64,000 nucleotides of DNA from Pelagicoccus enzymogenes (GTDB taxonomy: Bacteria; Verrucomicrobiota; Verrucomicrobiia; Opitutales; Opitutaceae). Below the pieces are notes generated by a model. It had not been told where the DNA came from. It searched no databases and was given only the letters and a program-made list of their open reading frames with translations. Positions 28,295 through 36,223 of the stretch are shown here, in pieces; the first letter of the stretch is position 1, and the number at the start of each line of letters is the position of its first letter. The translations under genes were made by a program, and so were the position numbers. The stretch lies in contig NZ_JACYFG010000051.1 of the NCBI RefSeq assembly GCF_014803405.1, positions 682,001-746,000 of the forward strand, in the 5' to 3' direction.

Positions 28295-29158
28295 ATGAAC
28301 CCTATCAGCTGCCTACTGAAACGCGCCGTTCTCCTCGGCGCCTCGATCGCTCTCGCCGCCAATGTCTCGGCGCAATTGAAAACGCCAGCTGCCAGCCCGC
28401 ATGCGGTGCTGGAGCAAACGGTCGGCCTGACCGAAGTCGCGGTCGACTACTCCCGACCCAGCGTGAAAGGACGGGAGATCTTCGGAGGCCTCGTACCCTA
28501 CGGTAAGGTTTGGAGGACCGGAGCCAACCAACCGAGCAAGATCAGCTTCAGCGACGACGTGGTTTTGGGCGGGGAAAAGGTTCCAGCCGGACAATATGCC
28601 TTCTACACCATTCCCGGAAAGACGGAGTGGACCGTTATCATTTACAAGAGCACCGATCTTTGGGGCTCCATGGGTTACGATCCGAAGAACGATTTGGTTC
28701 GCTTCACGGTCAAGCCCACCAAGTTGGCCCAGCCGGTGGAGTCCATGACGTTCTCGATCGATGGACTGCGCAACGACGGCGCCTTGCTGCAGCTCGATTG
28801 GGATCGCACGCGTATCGCTATCCCCATGGAAGTTCCGACCGCTGAAAAAGTGATGGCCCAGATCGAGGAGCTCCGCGGTACGCCTGCCTTCGAAAAGCCA
28901 AACGTGCTCTTCAGCGCCGGAACCTATTATCACGAGTCTGGCAAGGATCTTGAAACCGCACTCGAGTGGGTAAGCAAAGCCTGCGAGTTGAGCGATCGTC
29001 CCGCATACTGGATGTTCGCTCGCAAGGCCCGCATCGAAGTGGAGCTTGGCAAGACCGCTGCAGCGAAGGTTTCCGCTGAGAAAACGCTCGAGTTGGCGAC
29101 CGCCGGCGGAAACGCGGACTACCAGAAAATCGCCAGAGACATTCTCGCCAAGCTCTAG
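28295..29158 (+). CDS. Secreted DUF2911 protein
   Basis: This 287-aa protein starts at ATG 28295 (MNPISCLLKRAVLLGASIAL, signal peptide ending VSAQ). The mature N-terminal domain has the DUF2911 landmarks: VDYSRPSVKGREIFGGLVPY, VWRTGANQPSKISFSDDV and KVPAGQYAFYTIPG. A C-terminal helical stretch (about residues 190-287) looks like a degenerate TPR pair. The function of DUF2911 is not known to me; it is common in Bacteroidota and Verrucomicrobiota. The in-frame extension upstream lacks a leader and is rejected. A terminator follows at 29172. Confidence 0.85.
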   Translation: MNPISCLLKRAVLLGASIALAANVSAQLKTPAASPHAVLEQTVGLTEVAVDYSRPSVKGREIFGGLVPYGKVWRTGANQPSKISFSDDVVLGGEKVPAGQYAFYTIPGKTEWTVIIYKSTDLWGSMGYDPKNDLVRFTVKPTKLAQPVESMTFSIDGLRNDGALLQLDWDRTRIAIPMEVPTAEKVMAQIEELRGTPAFEKPNVLFSAGTYYHESGKDLETALEWVSKACELSDRPAYWMFARKARIEVELGKTAAAKVSAEKTLELATAGGNADYQKIARDILAKL

Positions 29159-29236: not shown

Positions 29237-31753
29237 ATGTCTCTTGAACTTTTTCGAAACGTGAGCTGCTGCCTGCTCTCGATCGCTTCGTCGGCCAGCT
29301 TGTTGCAAGCTCAAGCGATCGATGCTCCAGAACCACAGACGGGATCCGAGATCCTTTGGTCGCTCCAAAAGTTGGATACGCTCGGAAGGGCGCTTTACGT
29401 TGCCGCCCATCCGGACGACGAGAATACCAGCTTGATCTCCTACCTGTCGTTGGGGCGAAAGTACGATACGGCTTACCTCTCCCTCACGCGTGGCGACGGT
29501 GGACAAAACTTGATCGGCCCCGAGTTGCGTGACCAGTTGGGAGTGATCCGCACTCAGGAGTTGCTGGAAGCCCGCAAGGTCGATGGCGGTCAGCAGTTTT
29601 TTAGTCGAGCGAGGGATTTCGGCTTTTCCAAGCATCCGGATGAAACCTTCCGCATCTGGGATCGAGAAGGCGTCTTGGCGGATACAGTATGGGTGATTCG
29701 AAACTTTCAACCGGATGTCCTCATCACGCGCTTCAGTCCGGTTCCCGGCACCACGCATGGGCACCACACCGCATCGACTATTCTGGCCCTGGAAGCTTTT
29801 GAAGCGGCCGCGGACCCAGAGAGGTTCCCCGAGCAGCTAGACTTTGTGAATACATGGCAGGCGAAGCGAGTCGTTTGGAACACCAGCAGCTGGTTCTTCC
29901 GCAATAACAACGTAACCTTCGACGAGGAAAAGTACTCGCGCCTCGACGTGGGGGGATTCGAACCCTTGCTGGGGCGGTCCTACAACGAGATCGCTTCCGT
30001 GAGCCGCAGCATGCACCTGAGCCAAGGCTTTGGAACCAGTATCGATCGGGGATCGCGTATCGAGTACTTCGAGCACTTAGCGGGAGCCCCCGTGGAGGGG
30101 GATATATTCAGTGGCGTCGACACCACTTGGGATCGTGTTGAAGGTTCGGATACGGTACAACTGAAAGTCAAAGAGGTGATCGCCAGTTTCGACGTCACCA
30201 ATCCTGCGAAGTCGGTACCCGCTCTATTGGAACTGCGAGACGCGATCGGCTCGCTTCCGGAAACGAATTGGGCGTTGCGTAAGCGAGCGGAGTTGGATCG
30301 CATTGTTTTGTCTTGCATGGGGCTCGATTTGAGAGCCTTGAGCTCTGACCACTACGTTCAAAACGGGGATGTCATGCGCATCTCCATTGAACTCATCAAT
30401 CGTTCGCAAGTGGCCGCGCGACTAGCGGGAGTGGCGGTTCCTTTTGTCGATTTGGTCGAGCAGCCGAATCTGGAACTCCGCTTCAACGAGCGTATCAACC
30501 ACAACCTTACGGCTTCGATTTCCGAAGATACTCCGCTTCCGCAACCTTACTGGCTGGAAAAGGAAGGGAGCTTGGGGATGTTTGACGTGGAAGATCAGCT
30601 TCTGATTGGGAAAGCTGAAAACGATCCGGCGTTTTACGCAGAAGTGGCGATCGAAGTGATGGGGCGATCGATCCTAGTGGGGCTACCTATCGAGTACCGT
30701 GATGTGGATCCAGCCAAGGGGGAAACGATTCGCCCCGTGCGGAACCTGCCAGCTGCAGCGGTGGAGTTCGCGAATCCTGTCAGTCTCTTTCCGAACTATA
30801 TCAGTCGCCAGGTTGACGTTTCCGTATCGGCCTTGTTGGACGACGTTTCAGGGCAGCTCTCCCTCGAGCTTCCGCGAGGTTGGAAGGTTGAGCCCGAGTA
30901 CTACGAGGTTGAAACGATCCGCAGCGGCGGTTCGCGGAACTACTCTTTTACTGTGACCCCTCGTCCGGCGGCTGAGCAGGTGAGCATTGCTGCCCGCTTG
31001 TCGACGATGTCAGGCGAGTTCAAGCAGTCGGTCGCCCAGATCGAATACGAGCACATTCGAGAGCAAACCGTATTTGCCCGTGCGGAAACGCGGGCGGTAA
31101 GCTTGGAGGTTGCCCGATTGGGACAACGGGTCGGATACCTTCCCGGAGCAGGGGATGTGGTCCCTGCTAGCATCCGGGAAATTGGCTACGAGGTGGTCGA
31201 GCTTTCCGCTGAGAGCTTCGACCCGAACGTTCTGGCTTCGCTTGATACGGTGGTCGTTGGTATCCGAGCTTACAATACGATCGATAACATCGAAGCGATC
31301 ATGGAAGATCTGTTTCGCTTCACCGAAAAGGGCGGTACTGTCGTGGTGCAATACAATACCAACCGCGCTCTGAAGACTCACAAGTTCGCTCCCTATTCAT
31401 TAAACATCTCGCGGGATCGCGTCACCGACGAGACTGCTGACGTGCGCGTGATCGCTCCCGAGCACCCGGTCATGAACGTGCCGAACCAGATTTCGGCGGA
31501 AGACTTCGAACATTGGACCCAGGAAAGAGGGCTTTATTTTCCGAACTCTTGGGACAGGGCCTTTCAGCCTATCTTTTCGATCAATGATCCCGGAGAAACC
31601 CCCAGCGAAGGAAGCTTGCTTGTCGCCCCGTATGGCGAAGGGTATTTCGTTTACACGGGCATCTCTTGGTTTCGTCAATTGCCAGCTGGCGTTCCGGGCG
31701 CCTATCGAATTTTCGCGAACATACTATCCCTTGGACATGATCCAGAGAGCTGA
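29237..31753 (+). CDS. Large secreted PIG-L-type (GlcNAc deacetylase-like) protein
   Basis: This 838-aa protein starts at ATG 29237 with a signal peptide ending about SLLQAQA. Residues ~50-270 form a LmbE/PIG-L domain: the zinc motif AHPDDENTSLISY, LTRGDGGQNLIG, and THGHHTAS for the distal histidine. The rest (~300-838) is beta-rich, probably Ig-like or NPCBM-like, with a ThuA/GATase-like stretch (VVVGIRAYNTIDNI ... FTEKGGTVVVQYNT) near the end. PIG-L enzymes remove acetyl groups from GlcNAc conjugates or hydrolyse thiol conjugates. It begins an operon containing bshB and bshA, so it may act on sugar-thiol conjugates or acetylated glycosides outside the cytoplasm; that is inference. Confidence 0.82.
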   Translation: MSLELFRNVSCCLLSIASSASLLQAQAIDAPEPQTGSEILWSLQKLDTLGRALYVAAHPDDENTSLISYLSLGRKYDTAYLSLTRGDGGQNLIGPELRDQLGVIRTQELLEARKVDGGQQFFSRARDFGFSKHPDETFRIWDREGVLADTVWVIRNFQPDVLITRFSPVPGTTHGHHTASTILALEAFEAAADPERFPEQLDFVNTWQAKRVVWNTSSWFFRNNNVTFDEEKYSRLDVGGFEPLLGRSYNEIASVSRSMHLSQGFGTSIDRGSRIEYFEHLAGAPVEGDIFSGVDTTWDRVEGSDTVQLKVKEVIASFDVTNPAKSVPALLELRDAIGSLPETNWALRKRAELDRIVLSCMGLDLRALSSDHYVQNGDVMRISIELINRSQVAARLAGVAVPFVDLVEQPNLELRFNERINHNLTASISEDTPLPQPYWLEKEGSLGMFDVEDQLLIGKAENDPAFYAEVAIEVMGRSILVGLPIEYRDVDPAKGETIRPVRNLPAAAVEFANPVSLFPNYISRQVDVSVSALLDDVSGQLSLELPRGWKVEPEYYEVETIRSGGSRNYSFTVTPRPAAEQVSIAARLSTMSGEFKQSVAQIEYEHIREQTVFARAETRAVSLEVARLGQRVGYLPGAGDVVPASIREIGYEVVELSAESFDPNVLASLDTVVVGIRAYNTIDNIEAIMEDLFRFTEKGGTVVVQYNTNRALKTHKFAPYSLNISRDRVTDETADVRVIAPEHPVMNVPNQISAEDFEHWTQERGLYFPNSWDRAFQPIFSINDPGETPSEGSLLVAPYGEGYFVYTGISWFRQLPAGVPGAYRIFANILSLGHDPES

Positions 31754-31775: not shown

Positions 31776-31913
31776 ATGGATACCAACAAAGAAGATCAGG
31801 GCGCTGAGAAAGTGCCCGTATTCGGTAGCTGGAGACGAACCTACTGGTTCGTAGCTCTCTTTTTCGTAGTGGAAGTGGTCGCTTTCTACGTGTTTACCCA
31901 GCATTACTCGTGA
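31776..31913 (+). CDS. 45-aa single-span membrane protein coupled to the symporter
   Basis: ATG at 31776, stop TGA at 31911-31913. The product is a polar N-terminus (MDTNKEDQGAEKVPVFGSWR) then one hydrophobic helix (YWFVALFFVVEVVAFYVF) and TQHYS. Its stop overlaps the GTG start of the symporter gene (GTGA), so translation is coupled. It begins 22 bp after the PIG-L gene. Small single-helix partners encoded just before sodium:solute symporters occur in other bacteria; I infer an accessory subunit. Too short for routine gene callers. Confidence 0.75.
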   Translation: MDTNKEDQGAEKVPVFGSWRRTYWFVALFFVVEVVAFYVFTQHYS

Positions 31914-33616
31914 GCGCTTTAGATTATATTGTACTGCTGAGTACGCTTTTGGGAATAGCCGCCTACGGCATGTGGCGCACGCGCACGAGTGGAGGCTTGC
32001 AAGGCTACCTCAAAGGGGACGACTCCATACGCTGGGGCACGATTGGGCTCTCTGTGATGGCGACGCAGGCCAGCGCCATTACTTTCCTCTCTACGCCTGG
32101 TAAGGCTTATGACGACGGCATGGGATTCGTGCAGAACTATTTTGGCATGCCATTCGCCATCATATTTATCTGTGTGTTTTTCATCCCGATCTACCGTAAA
32201 CTCAACGTGTATACGTCCTATGAATACCTAGGACAACGCTTTGATTCCAAAACGCGATACTTGGGAGCTTTCTTGTTTTTGATTCAGAGAGGCTTGGCTG
32301 CGGGGATAACGATATACGCTCCGGCGATTGTCATCTCGTCCCTGCTTGGCTGGAACCTCGACCTTACCATCGTGTTGGTGGGCGCCTTGGTAGTGGTCTA
32401 CACGGTTTCGGGTGGCACCAAAGCGGTCAGCATTACGCAGCGCTACCAGATGGGGATCATCTTGGTGGGCATGTTTGTCGCCTTCGCCATGATCATCGGG
32501 AACTTGCCGGACGACGTGTCCTTTAGCTCGGCGCTGTCGGTTGCGGGGGCAATGGACAAGCTGGAGGTGGTCAATTTCTCTTTCGACATCGAGGAACGGT
32601 ACACTTTTTGGTCGGGACTGTTTGGCGGCTTGTTTCTGTCGTTGTCCTACTTCGGCACGGACCAATCGCAGGTGCAACGTTACTTGGCCGGTACGTCCGT
32701 GAGCGCCAGCCGCTTCGGACTGTTGTTCAACGCGGTGGTCAAGATTCCCATGCAGTTCTTTATCCTGTTTGTGGGGGTTATGGTGTTTGTCTTTTACCTT
32801 TTTGAAGAACCGCCTGTATTCTTCAATCAAGCAACCTTAGATGCCGTATCGGAAACGGAATACGCGGACGGCCTCGCCGTCCTGCGAGATCGTTATGCGT
32901 CGGTGGTGGAGGAGCGAGCCGCTGCAGTTCGTCAATTGGCTGCCGATTTGCAGAACGGAGATGATGCAGCGGTCGCTGTGTCCAAGGAGCTCGCGGTTCG
33001 ACTGGAGTCCGAAGCTTTGGGAGTGCGAGAAGAGGTGAAGAGCTTGATTGGTCAAGCCGGCGAAGATTTCGAGGCGAAGGATTCGGACTATGTGTTTATC
33101 ACCTTCATCCTAAACTACCTGCCGGAAGGGTTGATTGGCTTGCTCGTTGCGGTGATTTTTGCGGCTGCCATGTCCTCCACGGCTTCGGAACTCAACGCCC
33201 TCGGCTCCACTACGATGGTCGATTTTTATTCCCGCTGGGCGAAGGGAGAGCAGTCCGATGCCCACTATGTAAGGGTATCGCGAATACTCACCGCAGCATG
33301 GGGTGGCCTAGCCATTTTCTTCGCTCTCTACGCGAACTTGGTGGAGAACTTGATTGAGGCAGTGAATATCCTCGGCTCGCTTTTTTACGGCGGTATCTTG
33401 GGAATGTTTTTGGTGGCCTTCTTTGTTAAATCGGTTCGCGGGAGCGCTGTTTTCTACGCGGCGATTGTGAGTCAGCTTGCTGTGCTCGTTATGTACAAGA
33501 CTTTGGGGATAGGCTATCTCTGGTATAATTTGATTGGTTGCGGGATGGTCATGATTTTGTCCTATGTCCTGCAAGTAACTATCTTCCGCAAACAAGAGAG
33601 AGGAAGCAAGGCATGA
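31910..33616 (+). CDS. Sodium:solute symporter (SSS family)
   Basis: This 568-aa protein with a GTG start has about 13 membrane helices. Family landmarks are IRWGTIGLSVMATQASAITF with the discontinuous first helix, YEYLGQRFDSKTRYLGAFLF, VYTVSGGTKAVSITQRYQMG, and SYFGTDQSQVQRYLAGTSVS, the SSS signature. Between helices in the C-terminal half an inserted ~85-residue charged, coiled-coil-like segment (residues ~305-390, including VVEERAAAVRQLAADLQ) is atypical. The solute is unknown; sugars, sialic acid or amino sugars are usual. It is co-translated with the small membrane protein before it and with the BshC-like gene after it (ATGA overlap). Confidence 0.9.
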   Translation: MSALDYIVLLSTLLGIAAYGMWRTRTSGGLQGYLKGDDSIRWGTIGLSVMATQASAITFLSTPGKAYDDGMGFVQNYFGMPFAIIFICVFFIPIYRKLNVYTSYEYLGQRFDSKTRYLGAFLFLIQRGLAAGITIYAPAIVISSLLGWNLDLTIVLVGALVVVYTVSGGTKAVSITQRYQMGIILVGMFVAFAMIIGNLPDDVSFSSALSVAGAMDKLEVVNFSFDIEERYTFWSGLFGGLFLSLSYFGTDQSQVQRYLAGTSVSASRFGLLFNAVVKIPMQFFILFVGVMVFVFYLFEEPPVFFNQATLDAVSETEYADGLAVLRDRYASVVEERAAAVRQLAADLQNGDDAAVAVSKELAVRLESEALGVREEVKSLIGQAGEDFEAKDSDYVFITFILNYLPEGLIGLLVAVIFAAAMSSTASELNALGSTTMVDFYSRWAKGEQSDAHYVRVSRILTAAWGGLAIFFALYANLVENLIEAVNILGSLFYGGILGMFLVAFFVKSVRGSAVFYAAIVSQLAVLVMYKTLGIGYLWYNLIGCGMVMILSYVLQVTIFRKQERGSKA

Positions 33617-34383
33617 GCAAGGCTCCCGTGATCGCGTTTGGCCAACAACCCTGCGGCTTTTTTCCGAAGCGGTTCCTCGTATCCAAAATCTGGACTGCGA
33701 AGCGCTTGCAGCAGGAGATTGGAGGAGAGGTGGTTTTCTTCTACCACGACTGCGACCATGATCCGCGGGAAACGCAAACGAAGTTGACCCATCTCAAGAC
33801 TGGGGATCTTCATTGCTTGAATTTCGCTTTCGAGAACAAGATCCAGAAAAAGTACTCGCCGCTTTTTGCTAAGCGAGTGGATCGTAATTGGCAGGCGAAT
33901 ACTGCTCGACAGCTCCCCCAGTTTGTGAGCGAGGAACTCACCGAGCTCTTTGACTCCATTCGAGAGGAGAACGTGGCAGACTTTTGTCTAGCTATGTATC
34001 GCGGCATGGGATTGCTGGAGGGGATTCGGGTAGAGCGTTCGGGGGCGCCGGAATTTCGTCGTAAGGCGATCGCGGTGGATGATTACTTCGTGGATACGGA
34101 GCTGGAGGGCGAAGTGGTCCGAGCTCGCTTGCACAACGGTGGTTTTGCGCTCCACCAGGGTGGGAGCTCCTATCTGCCGGTGGAAGCGGATCCAAGCGAC
34201 AAGGGAAGGATCACGCCGTCCCGCGACACGCGCCTGCGTTGGATGCAATCCGTTTTGGGATGTACGCACTATGTCGCAGGGGCTGGGGAGATAAAATACT
34301 TGAACAAGGACGACGCACCTGAGATCGAGTTTGTTGAACGTGACCCCATTGAACGCAGCGACGAAGCTTATGTCGGAGAGTAA
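33613..34383 (+). CDS. Compact BshC-like protein (candidate bacillithiol synthase)
   Basis: This 256-aa protein starts at ATG 33613, overlapping the symporter stop by 4 bp. By eye it shares, in order, the landmarks of BshC, the cysteine-adding bacillithiol synthase. These are VIAFGQQPCGFF (G10-Q12) against the VIGGQQAGLL loop of BshC, FFYHDCDHDPRET (residues 42-53) against the DHDFDE segment, SRDTRLRWMQ (203-211) against TRPIMQ, and THYVAGAGEIKYL (218-230) against FIAGPGEVAYW. BshC is normally ~540 aa; here the middle and the C-terminal coiled-coil part are missing. It is followed directly by bshB and bshA. I infer a minimal or alternative thiol-forming ligase; activity is unproven. Confidence 0.6.
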   Translation: MSKAPVIAFGQQPCGFFPKRFLVSKIWTAKRLQQEIGGEVVFFYHDCDHDPRETQTKLTHLKTGDLHCLNFAFENKIQKKYSPLFAKRVDRNWQANTARQLPQFVSEELTELFDSIREENVADFCLAMYRGMGLLEGIRVERSGAPEFRRKAIAVDDYFVDTELEGEVVRARLHNGGFALHQGGSSYLPVEADPSDKGRITPSRDTRLRWMQSVLGCTHYVAGAGEIKYLNKDDAPEIEFVERDPIERSDEAYVGE

Positions 34384-35086
34384 GGAACTTTCTATCCTAG
34401 TTGTAGGAGCCCACCCGGACGATATCGAGTTCGGCTGCGGCGCCATCCTGCTAAAGGAGGCGGAGAGCGGCGCTCGTATTCACTTTTTGGTGTGCTCTCT
34501 CGGTGAAGCGGGGAGTAATGGAACTCCTCAGGAACGGGAGGCGGAGAGTCGAGCGGCAGCAGCCCGCTGCGGAGCGACAATCGATTTCATCGAATGCGGT
34601 GGAGACGGGAATATGCAGGCGACGCCGGAAACAGCTCGCGGGATCGCCCGCAGGATTCGGGAGACGAAGGCAACGGTACTCTTAGCCCCAAGTTTAGTGG
34701 CGAACCAGCATCCGGACCATTCAGCCATCGGCAAAGCAGCCCAGGATGCCGCTCGCCTCGCTCGCTACGCAGGGATTGCGGAGCTGTCAGATGCGCCGCC
34801 TCATGCGATTGCCTCGCTTTACTTCTATGCTATCACTCCCGGCGCGGAGCCTCGCGAAGGCACTCCCTTCGTATTCGATGTTTCGCTGCAGGTCGACGCT
34901 TGGCGTGAGATGATGAACTGTCACCAGTCCCAAATGAAAACCCGTCGCTATCTGGATCTCCAGCTTTCGCGAGCGCGGACTTTGGGGCTGCAAACAGGGT
35001 GCGAGTACGCTCAAGCCCTCTGGCCCAACGATCCGGTTCTCGTGAACGGGTTGAATTCGGCGCCGCGTGGCATTCGTCTGTTCTAG
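34370..35086 (+). CDS. bshB: Bacillithiol pathway deacetylase BshB (PIG-L/LmbE family)
   Basis: This 238-aa cytoplasmic enzyme starts at ATG 34370, overlapping the BshC-like gene by 14 bp. The zinc motif is VVGAHPDDIEFGCGAILLK, followed by LVCSLGEAGSNGTPQERE and ANQHPDHSAIGKAAQDA with the third zinc ligand. The length and motif spacing match BshB1-type enzymes, which deacetylate GlcNAc-malate. Its stop is immediately followed by the bshA start, with no gap, so the pair makes GlcN-malate from UDP-GlcNAc and malate. Confidence 0.88.
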   Translation: MSESKELSILVVGAHPDDIEFGCGAILLKEAESGARIHFLVCSLGEAGSNGTPQEREAESRAAAARCGATIDFIECGGDGNMQATPETARGIARRIRETKATVLLAPSLVANQHPDHSAIGKAAQDAARLARYAGIAELSDAPPHAIASLYFYAITPGAEPREGTPFVFDVSLQVDAWREMMNCHQSQMKTRRYLDLQLSRARTLGLQTGCEYAQALWPNDPVLVNGLNSAPRGIRLF

Positions 35087-36223
35087 GTGGACTCCAACAA
35101 ACCCCTGAAAATCGGCATTGCCTGCTACCCTTTGGTGGGGGGAAGCGGAATTCTCGCTTCGGCTCTGGGGATGGAGCTCGCCGCTCGCGGGCACGAGGTC
35201 CACTTCTTCAGCTACGCTAAACCCGTACGCCTCGATACTTCCCTGCCGCGTATTCACTTCCATCCGGTTGCGGTGTCGAAGTACAAGCTGTTCGAATACG
35301 CCGACTACACCTTGCCGCTGGCGGTCAAATTGGCGGAGGTCGCTGACCAAGCCCATCTCGACATCATTCACGCTCATTACGCGGTGCCGCACGCCACGGC
35401 TGCCTACATCGCCAAGCGTATGGCGAAGCAGGACCGTTTGCGGATCGTGACGACCTTGCACGGAACGGATACCACTTTGCTTGGGCGGGATCCCAACTAC
35501 CGGAGAGCGATCGAGTACTCGCTGCAGCACTCGGATCGGGTAACGACGGTCTCGGATAGCTTGCGTCGAGACACGGAGGAAATCTTCGACGTGGGCAAGC
35601 CGGTGGAGGTGATCCACAATTTCTACACGCCCGGTCGGCCGACTTCCACACGGGAGACCATGCGCAAGGACTTAGGCCTGGGAGACTGCTTCACGCTCTT
35701 CCACGCTTCCAATTTAAGATCGGTGAAGCGTATCGACCTTTTGCTGCAGTCGGTGGCTCGCTGCAAACTTCGAGAGAACTTGAAGCTCGTCATCCTGGCC
35801 GGAAATTCCTTCGAAGCCTTCGAAGGTCAAGTGAAGGACTTGGGGTTGGAGGAGACGGTGATCGTGCGAGAAAACGGGTATCCGATCGAAGACTACATCG
35901 AAGCTTGTGACTTCGGGATCTACACGTCGGAGACGGAGAGCTTTTGCCTGAGTATCCTCGAAGGAATGTTTTTGGGCAAAGCCGCTTTGGCGTTTCGAGT
36001 CGGAGGCATTCCGGAAGTCATGGAAGAGAACCTTTCCGGTTTGTTGTGCGACTTTGGAGATTGCGACGCCATGGCGTCTGCTATCGACGCGTTGGCGGCA
36101 GGACCGGAGCGAGCCAGGGAAATGGGGGCCGAAGCGAAAAAACGGGCTCTGGGGCGCTTCACGGCGGACAGGATCGTGCCGCTGTACCTTGAGTGTTACC
36201 GTCAGGCCTTGGCGGACAGCTGA
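35087..36223 (+). CDS. bshA: N-acetyl-alpha-D-glucosaminyl L-malate synthase BshA
   Basis: This 378-aa GT4 glycosyltransferase (GTG start directly after the bshB stop) begins LKIGIACYPLVGGSGILASA, very close to the CYPSVGGSG signature of BshA. It continues with HEVHFFSYAKPVRLD, DIIHAHYAVPHATAAYIAK and TTLHGTDTTLLGRDPNYRR. The nucleotide-sugar site has the EX7E pattern (ETESFCLSILEGM) and VGGIPEVMEENLSG. BshA joins GlcNAc from UDP-GlcNAc to L-malate, the first step of bacillithiol synthesis. This is the most confidently identified gene of the operon. Confidence 0.93.
   Translation: MDSNKPLKIGIACYPLVGGSGILASALGMELAARGHEVHFFSYAKPVRLDTSLPRIHFHPVAVSKYKLFEYADYTLPLAVKLAEVADQAHLDIIHAHYAVPHATAAYIAKRMAKQDRLRIVTTLHGTDTTLLGRDPNYRRAIEYSLQHSDRVTTVSDSLRRDTEEIFDVGKPVEVIHNFYTPGRPTSTRETMRKDLGLGDCFTLFHASNLRSVKRIDLLLQSVARCKLRENLKLVILAGNSFEAFEGQVKDLGLEETVIVRENGYPIEDYIEACDFGIYTSETESFCLSILEGMFLGKAALAFRVGGIPEVMEENLSGLLCDFGDCDAMASAIDALAAGPERAREMGAEAKKRALGRFTADRIVPLYLECYRQALADS

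Follow-up and report, generated by a model that had tools for sequence, protein, structure and literature searches.

In the 64,000-nucleotide stretch of the Pelagicoccus enzymogenes genome analysed here (contig NZ_JACYFG010000051.1; hereafter the window), a short gene lies between a sodium/solute symporter gene and a bshB–bshA pair, in the position and gene order given by the original prediction (Table 1). Bacillithiol is a glutathione-like protective molecule, and BshC is the enzyme that finishes it. The open reading frame (ORF) starts with ATG, contains no internal stop and encodes 256 residues. It overlaps the symporter gene by 4 bases and bshB by 14 bases, and bshA follows directly after bshB. 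The four motifs that had been picked out by eye as BshC landmarks are all found at the residues claimed for them. As proposed, the protein lacks roughly half of BshC including the coiled coil: the GQQ motif occupies residues 89–91 in Bacillus velezensis BshC versus 10–12 here, and PF24850 (CC_BshC) gives no match to the window protein, to 44 aligned members of the family or to 8 more members. On the basis of the conserved residues, the modelled fold and the gene context, the short protein is probably a minimal, previously unrecognised BshC that catalyses the final reaction of a bacillithiol-type pathway. We found no published description of such a form in a literature search with little coverage of subscription papers.

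The short gene belongs to a sizeable family. Scanning a collection of genome contigs with the short protein identified 241 loci encoding a relative; the locus counts given here are based on the best 80 of them. Among these, the closest relatives come from Pelagicoccus (85% identity). The gene is open in all 80 loci, with a length of 253–282 residues, and the window's genome (6.2 Mb; assembly completeness 95.9%) contains no further match to the BshC family PF10079 at E ≤ 10; a frameshifted or split bshC is thereby excluded, and the full-length bshC elsewhere in the genome that would have spoken against the original prediction does not appear in this assembly. A plasmid search with the short protein gave no match.

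Alignment of 26 short members (25 loci and the window protein) reveals that most of the motif positions are invariant, namely G10, Q11, Q12, H45, D46, D48, H49, D50, R204, D205, R207, G223 and E226, while the remaining motif positions are variable. Comparison with 6 full-length BshC sequences shows that the two families have 14 near-invariant residues in common, with the same amino acid on both sides (G10, Q11, Q12, K25, A29, D48, H49, D50, E53, R207, Q212, G223, E226 and Y229). This count rests on two individually weak hhalign alignments, one over the N-terminal and one over the C-terminal motif block, with the motifs in the expected order. The residue pattern GQQ, K, DHD-x2-E, R, Q and GxxE-x2-Y, defined from the 6 BshC sequences aligned in this analysis, is present in the same order in the short family. 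In addition, H45, C125, C217 and H219 are invariant residues peculiar to the short family. A zinc site composed of C14, H45, C217 and H219 was considered and set aside; C14 is replaced by serine in 2 of the 26 rows.

The predicted structure points in the same direction as the motifs. An AlphaFold2 model built from a 44-sequence alignment (43 of the 80 loci and the window protein) has a pLDDT of 95.1 and a pTM of 0.92, and its top Foldseek match in the PDB is B. subtilis BshC (4wbd; E = 1.1e-10, probability 1.00, TMq 0.67), which is also the sole PDB match at E ≤ 0.001. The next matches after BshC are glutamyl-tRNA synthetase (GluRS; E = 2.6e-3) and, at rank 17, MshC (8hfn; E = 1.2e-2). The catalytic core as modelled thus has the BshC fold. 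At the sequence level, PF10079 matches 3 of 8 further short members (E = 8e-6, 8.5e-5 and 1.1e-4), all from one genus and 57–59% identical to the window protein; it is the only Pfam family in these three, and the best score among the eight, 25.9 bits, lies just under the cut-off of 27. Likewise, scanning 4 short members against NCBIfam recovers TIGR03998, and no other family, in 2 of them (20.5 and 20.4 bits; E = 1.9e-4; cut-off 265.8), both of which belong to the three matched by PF10079; the other two gave no NCBIfam match. By comparison, a full-length verrucomicrobial BshC used as a control scores 347 bits with TIGR03998 and 63.7 bits with PF24850. A chance match of motifs is excluded by the fold match to 4wbd, the PF10079 matches of the relatives and the 14 common near-invariant residues.

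The distribution of the short form is closely tied to that of BshA. In one sample of 387 Verrucomicrobiota genomes, searches for BshA, the short form and PF10079 identified BshA over its cut-off in 28 genomes, the short form (threshold 1e-3) in 25 and PF10079 over its cut-off in 3. The 25 short-form genomes, all of which contain BshA, and the 3 full-length-BshC genomes do not overlap and together make up the 28 BshA genomes. The short form therefore stands in for full-length BshC in the Verrucomicrobiota genomes searched. The co-distribution has p = 2e-36 assuming independence, a value inflated by kinship, and 22 of the 25 short-form genomes come from the window's own family. The association is also seen within genera: among the genomes listed, BshA and the short form are both present in 4, 1 and 2 genomes of genera g53, g54 and g59, and both absent from 1, 3 and 1, respectively. 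When the PF10079 threshold is relaxed to E ≤ 0.01, nine matches are obtained, comprising the 3 true BshC, 3 short-form proteins and 3 that we take as chance (in G406, G253 and G271; frames of 452–1234 residues, below cut-off). Of 57 relatives searched, 30 gave a match, which in G052 is no more than a 36-residue fragment where a contig ends.

Some short-form loci carry labels from outside Verrucomicrobiota. No PF10079 match at E ≤ 0.01 was obtained in ten further genomes with short-form loci, whose labels include Obscuribacterales, Melainabacteria, Cyanobacteria, Planctomycetota and Phycisphaerales. When 81 short proteins are placed in a tree, the four with Melainabacteria, Obscuribacterales or Cyanobacteria labels group as a single clade (100/95) amid Verrucomicrobiota rows. 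This placement is consistent with transfer but falls short of proof, since the tree is rooted at its midpoint and the labels are the submitters' own.

Table 1. Genes of the cluster and conserved motifs of the short protein (feature, position in the window, strand, characteristics).
DUF2911 protein, signal-peptide-like start	28295..29158	+	PF11138; 57/62 loci
PIG-L protein, 838 aa, signal-peptide-like start	29237..31753	+	67/80 loci
Microprotein, 45 aa, one hydrophobic stretch	31776..31913	+	counterparts in 66/71 loci
Na+/solute symporter (SSS)	31910..33616	+	PF00474, TIGR00813 over cut-off; 79/80 loci
Short BshC-like protein, 256 aa	33613..34383	+	predicted BshC Rossmann-like core; N-terminal ~80 residues and C-terminal coiled coil lacking
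GQQ motif, residues 10–12	33640..33648	+	aligned with G89-Q90-Q91 of B. velezensis BshC
HDCDHD motif, residues 45–50	33745..33762	+	D48-H49-D50 aligned with the invariant DHD of BshC
SRDTR motif, residues 203–207	34219..34233	+	R207 aligned with the invariant R334 of BshC
AGAGE motif, residues 222–226	34276..34290	+	G223 and E226 aligned with G350 and E353 of BshC
bshB-like PIG-L deacetylase	34370..35086	+	PF02585; TIGR04001 122 bits, below cut-off 182.5; 78/80 loci
bshA, N-acetylglucosaminyl-malate synthase	35087..36223	+	TIGR03999 360 bits, above cut-off 273.7; 74/80 loci

The gene cluster around the short gene is conserved across the 80 loci, and many of its gaps are ends of the available DNA. 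BshA closely resembles the structures 2jjm and 3mbo (E about 3e-82). Despite DNA being available there, the symporter gene is missing at L067, and the gene for the 838-residue PIG-L protein at L025, L051, L067 and L071. The microprotein ORF, which sits between the PIG-L and symporter genes and overlaps the start of the latter, matches no Pfam family at E ≤ 0.01; its counterparts were counted by a W-x2/3-Y pattern with a 20–30-residue tail in the 71 loci whose upstream DNA extends for 2.3 kb or more, and it is possibly a small subunit of the symporter. The DUF2911 gene, counted in the 62 loci where upstream DNA exceeds 5.5 kb, also adjoins the PIG-L/symporter set in L158.

The 838-residue PIG-L protein contains an Mca/MshB-like N-terminal domain, which also resembles diacetylchitobiose deacetylases, followed by beta-rich and C-terminal domains (alignment of 33 of 59 complete frames and the window protein). 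All 25 short-form genomes contain it, G019 only as a remnant, compared with 1 of 3 full-length-BshC genomes and 0 of 20 genomes without BshA, and this PIG-L family is strongly linked to bacillithiol. In G025, G026 and G316, it is encoded at a distance from the short gene or on a different contig. A plasmid search with the protein returned 31 records, the best of which are alphaproteobacterial. Judged by eye, its signal-peptide-like start suggests export, and the protein might then act outside the cytosol to cut the thiol or conjugates of it, with a product subsequently taken up. In the full-length-BshC genome G173, the DUF2911, PIG-L, microprotein and symporter genes occur together on a contig other than that of bshC; the set is thus not peculiar to the short form and is apparently part of bacillithiol metabolism more broadly. 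The presence of the module in G173 also rules it out as the mark of a new thiol.

Two further observations were made on these loci. In G019 (L160, 7397–7552), the PIG-L gene persists only as a C-terminal remnant, with the symporter, short bshC, bshB and bshA all as open frames. In the full-length-BshC genomes G100, G173 and G364 (L155, L156 and L157), bshC is immediately preceded by a methyltransferase gene, which may encode an NmbA-like N-methylase.

Taken as a minimal BshC, the short protein would complete a three-step route. BshA would make N-acetylglucosaminyl-malate (GlcNAc-malate), BshB would take off its acetyl group, and the short BshC would ligate the free amine of the resulting glucosaminyl-malate (GlcN-malate) to an amino acid, with cysteine as the likeliest candidate. 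GlcN-malate is the presumed substrate because the BshA and BshB genes accompany the short gene, and cysteine would be the amino acid added. Ligation would take place in the cleft of the class-I-synthetase-like Rossmann core, where the common residues (GQQ, DHD-x2-E, R/Q and GxxE-x2-Y) would form the catalytic site, and the coiled coil would be dispensable. Direct support for this reading comes from the conserved ORF, the predicted BshC fold, the common residues, the gene cluster and the either-or distribution with full-length BshC.

Several observations weigh against this assignment. The affinity to PF10079 expected by the original prediction is seen, below threshold, in members of one genus; the window protein itself scores only 11.2 bits (E = 0.24; cut-off 27), a twilight-zone similarity. 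PF10079 gives no match in 5 of the 8 further members and matches only 1 of the 44 aligned members, the window's own, and the window protein matches no NCBIfam family at E ≤ 10, neither TIGR03998 nor MshC. BLASTP against full-length BshC reaches E = 1.6 at best, hhalign of the short against the full-length family gives probabilities of 12 and 22 (E = 0.0024 and 0.00097; shallow alignments), sequence searches of the PDB with the window protein and with a 44-row profile found no BshC, and a home-built hidden Markov model of BshC scores at best 8.8 bits in 54 short members versus 4.1 bits in 594 reversed or shuffled controls. By sequence alone, the kinship with BshC is hardly visible. The superposition on 4wbd is loose (root-mean-square deviation 6.0; 16% identity). 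In the cluster, the bshB-like protein falls under the TIGR04001 equivalog cut-off, bshA is missing nearby at L006, L049 and L059 despite DNA being available there, and bshB is gone from between short bshC and bshA in L159 (genome G302) and L029. Even for ordinary BshC, a 2015 review states that activity had never been demonstrated in vitro and that the ligation mechanism was unknown (PMC4360819). Finally, YpdA, the bacillithiol-disulfide reductase, is over its cut-off in 0 of the 25 short-form genomes and in 0 of the 10 further ones.

The redox partners can be compared across genomes. YpdA is over its cut-off in 3 of 48 genomes, exactly the three with full-length BshC. Weaker YpdA-like matches of 78–151 bits occur in 7 of the 25 short-form genomes, and among the 10 further genomes G429 contains a full-length YpdA relative (300.6 bits; cut-off 339.9) and three others have weak matches. 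BrxA/B is found in the same 3 of 48 genomes and in none of the 25 and 10 short-form genomes. Among 14 control genomes, BrxA/B is present only in B. subtilis, and PF10079 is found also in Thermus composti and Deinobacterium chartae; since BrxA/B is missing from controls with ordinary BshC, its absence from short-form genomes says little. GshB was not found at 1e-20 in the 25 short-form genomes, in a search that did not extend to fused GshAB, and glutathione made by the usual two-enzyme route is thus unlikely in them. The short-form bacteria may rely on a different route of disulfide reduction, or they may differ in the thiol itself or in how it is used. As a separate observation, G093, G102, G026 and G316 contain frames of 756–775 residues whose N-terminal 265 residues match YpdA at 128–151 bits, below cut-off, and similar frames are also present in full-length-BshC genomes; these are possible alternative thiol-disulfide reductases.

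The contrast in YpdA and BrxA/B between short-form and full-length-BshC genomes (none versus all three, for either protein) is a reason to consider a BshC-fold ligase with a changed product, in which another amino acid is added, or the product is modified, exported or extracytosolic, so that ordinary bacillithiol is not made. The cluster, with its additional Mca/MshB-like PIG-L protein, microprotein and symporter, and the distance of the family from BshC, with invariant residues of its own (H45, C125, C217 and H219), would also fit such a ligase. However, BshA scores above the equivalog cut-off, controls with ordinary BshC likewise lack BrxA/B, the PIG-L/microprotein/symporter module is present in G173 and hence not specific, and the sub-threshold YpdA-like proteins of G429 and of the 7 short-form genomes leave room for another reductase. 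We consider a changed product unlikely, and between the two options raised by the original prediction, a minimal bacillithiol synthase is favoured over a ligase for something else. A more elaborate scheme is doubtful and somewhat less probable again: Opitutae and their relatives would make a new bacillithiol-like thiol from an amino acid and GlcN-malate, dispense with YpdA recycling and run a cycle outside the cytoplasm, with the Mca-like PIG-L protein, once exported, cutting the thiol or its S-conjugates and the microprotein–symporter pair reimporting a piece.

It is also conceivable that the short protein is a non-catalytic relative of BshC, acting as a partner or regulator of BshA and BshB, and that the final ligation falls to an unrelated enzyme. 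The missing coiled coil and N-terminal region would be compatible with such a role, as would the statement of the 2015 review that even full-length BshC had never been shown to be active in vitro. By contrast, the motif residues held in common with BshC are near-invariant across the short family, PF10079 is over its cut-off in 0 of the 25 short-form genomes, and the replacement of BshC is one-to-one across the 28 BshA genomes; a non-catalytic role is thus very improbable. An unrelated class-I (HUP) Rossmann protein resembling BshC at the fold level only, which the weak sequence similarity and the matches of class-I synthetases to the model (E ≥ 2.6e-3) might suggest, is largely excluded by the lead of BshC of about seven orders of magnitude in E-value, by PF10079 and TIGR03998 being the sole families recognised in three and two members, respectively, and by the BshC-like motif order and bshA–bshB linkage.

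If the short protein is a minimal BshC, a bacillithiol-type thiol is predicted in 25 of 387 Verrucomicrobiota genomes, mostly of the window's own family, in a sample where full-length BshC revealed only 3, and also in some Obscuribacterales- and Planctomycetota-labelled genomes. Short-form Verrucomicrobiota, for most of which no protective thiol had been predicted before, thus probably make a bacillithiol-type thiol. A 2025 survey demanded more than 80% coverage and more than 25% identity to its BshC queries (PMC12719100), thresholds that the short form would miss. The short form would also represent a natural catalytic core of BshC, an enzyme whose ligation mechanism the 2015 review describes as unexplained (PMC4360819).

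Compared with known systems, the short protein shares an HUP-class Rossmann core with class I aminoacyl-tRNA synthetases, among which GluRS is the best match and the others are weaker. It differs from them in containing GQQPCGFF, not HIGH, in the loop after strand 1, and in being about half the length of the matched GluRS chains. MshC, the cysteine ligase of mycothiol synthesis, has the same superfamily fold and catalyses an analogous reaction. Its Foldseek match (8hfn) is far weaker than that of BshC, no MshC family of NCBIfam is matched, and the short gene is linked to bshA and bshB. The closest counterpart is BshC itself, with which the short form shares the predicted Rossmann-like core fold, the 14 near-invariant residues in the same order and the linkage to bshA and bshB. 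The obvious differences are in size and architecture: the four full-length proteins aligned have 521–554 residues versus 256 here, and relative to B. velezensis BshC the short form lacks about 80 N-terminal residues before GQQ, the PF24850 coiled coil and about 40 residues between the DHD and R/Q motifs. According to the 2015 review, the coiled coil of BshC is required for dimerisation and BshC binds ADP in a second pocket (PMC4360819). Because the short protein lies below both curated BshC cut-offs (TIGR03998 and PF10079) and is devoid of the coiled coil, it is to be regarded as a divergent new variant of BshC rather than as a member of TIGR03998.

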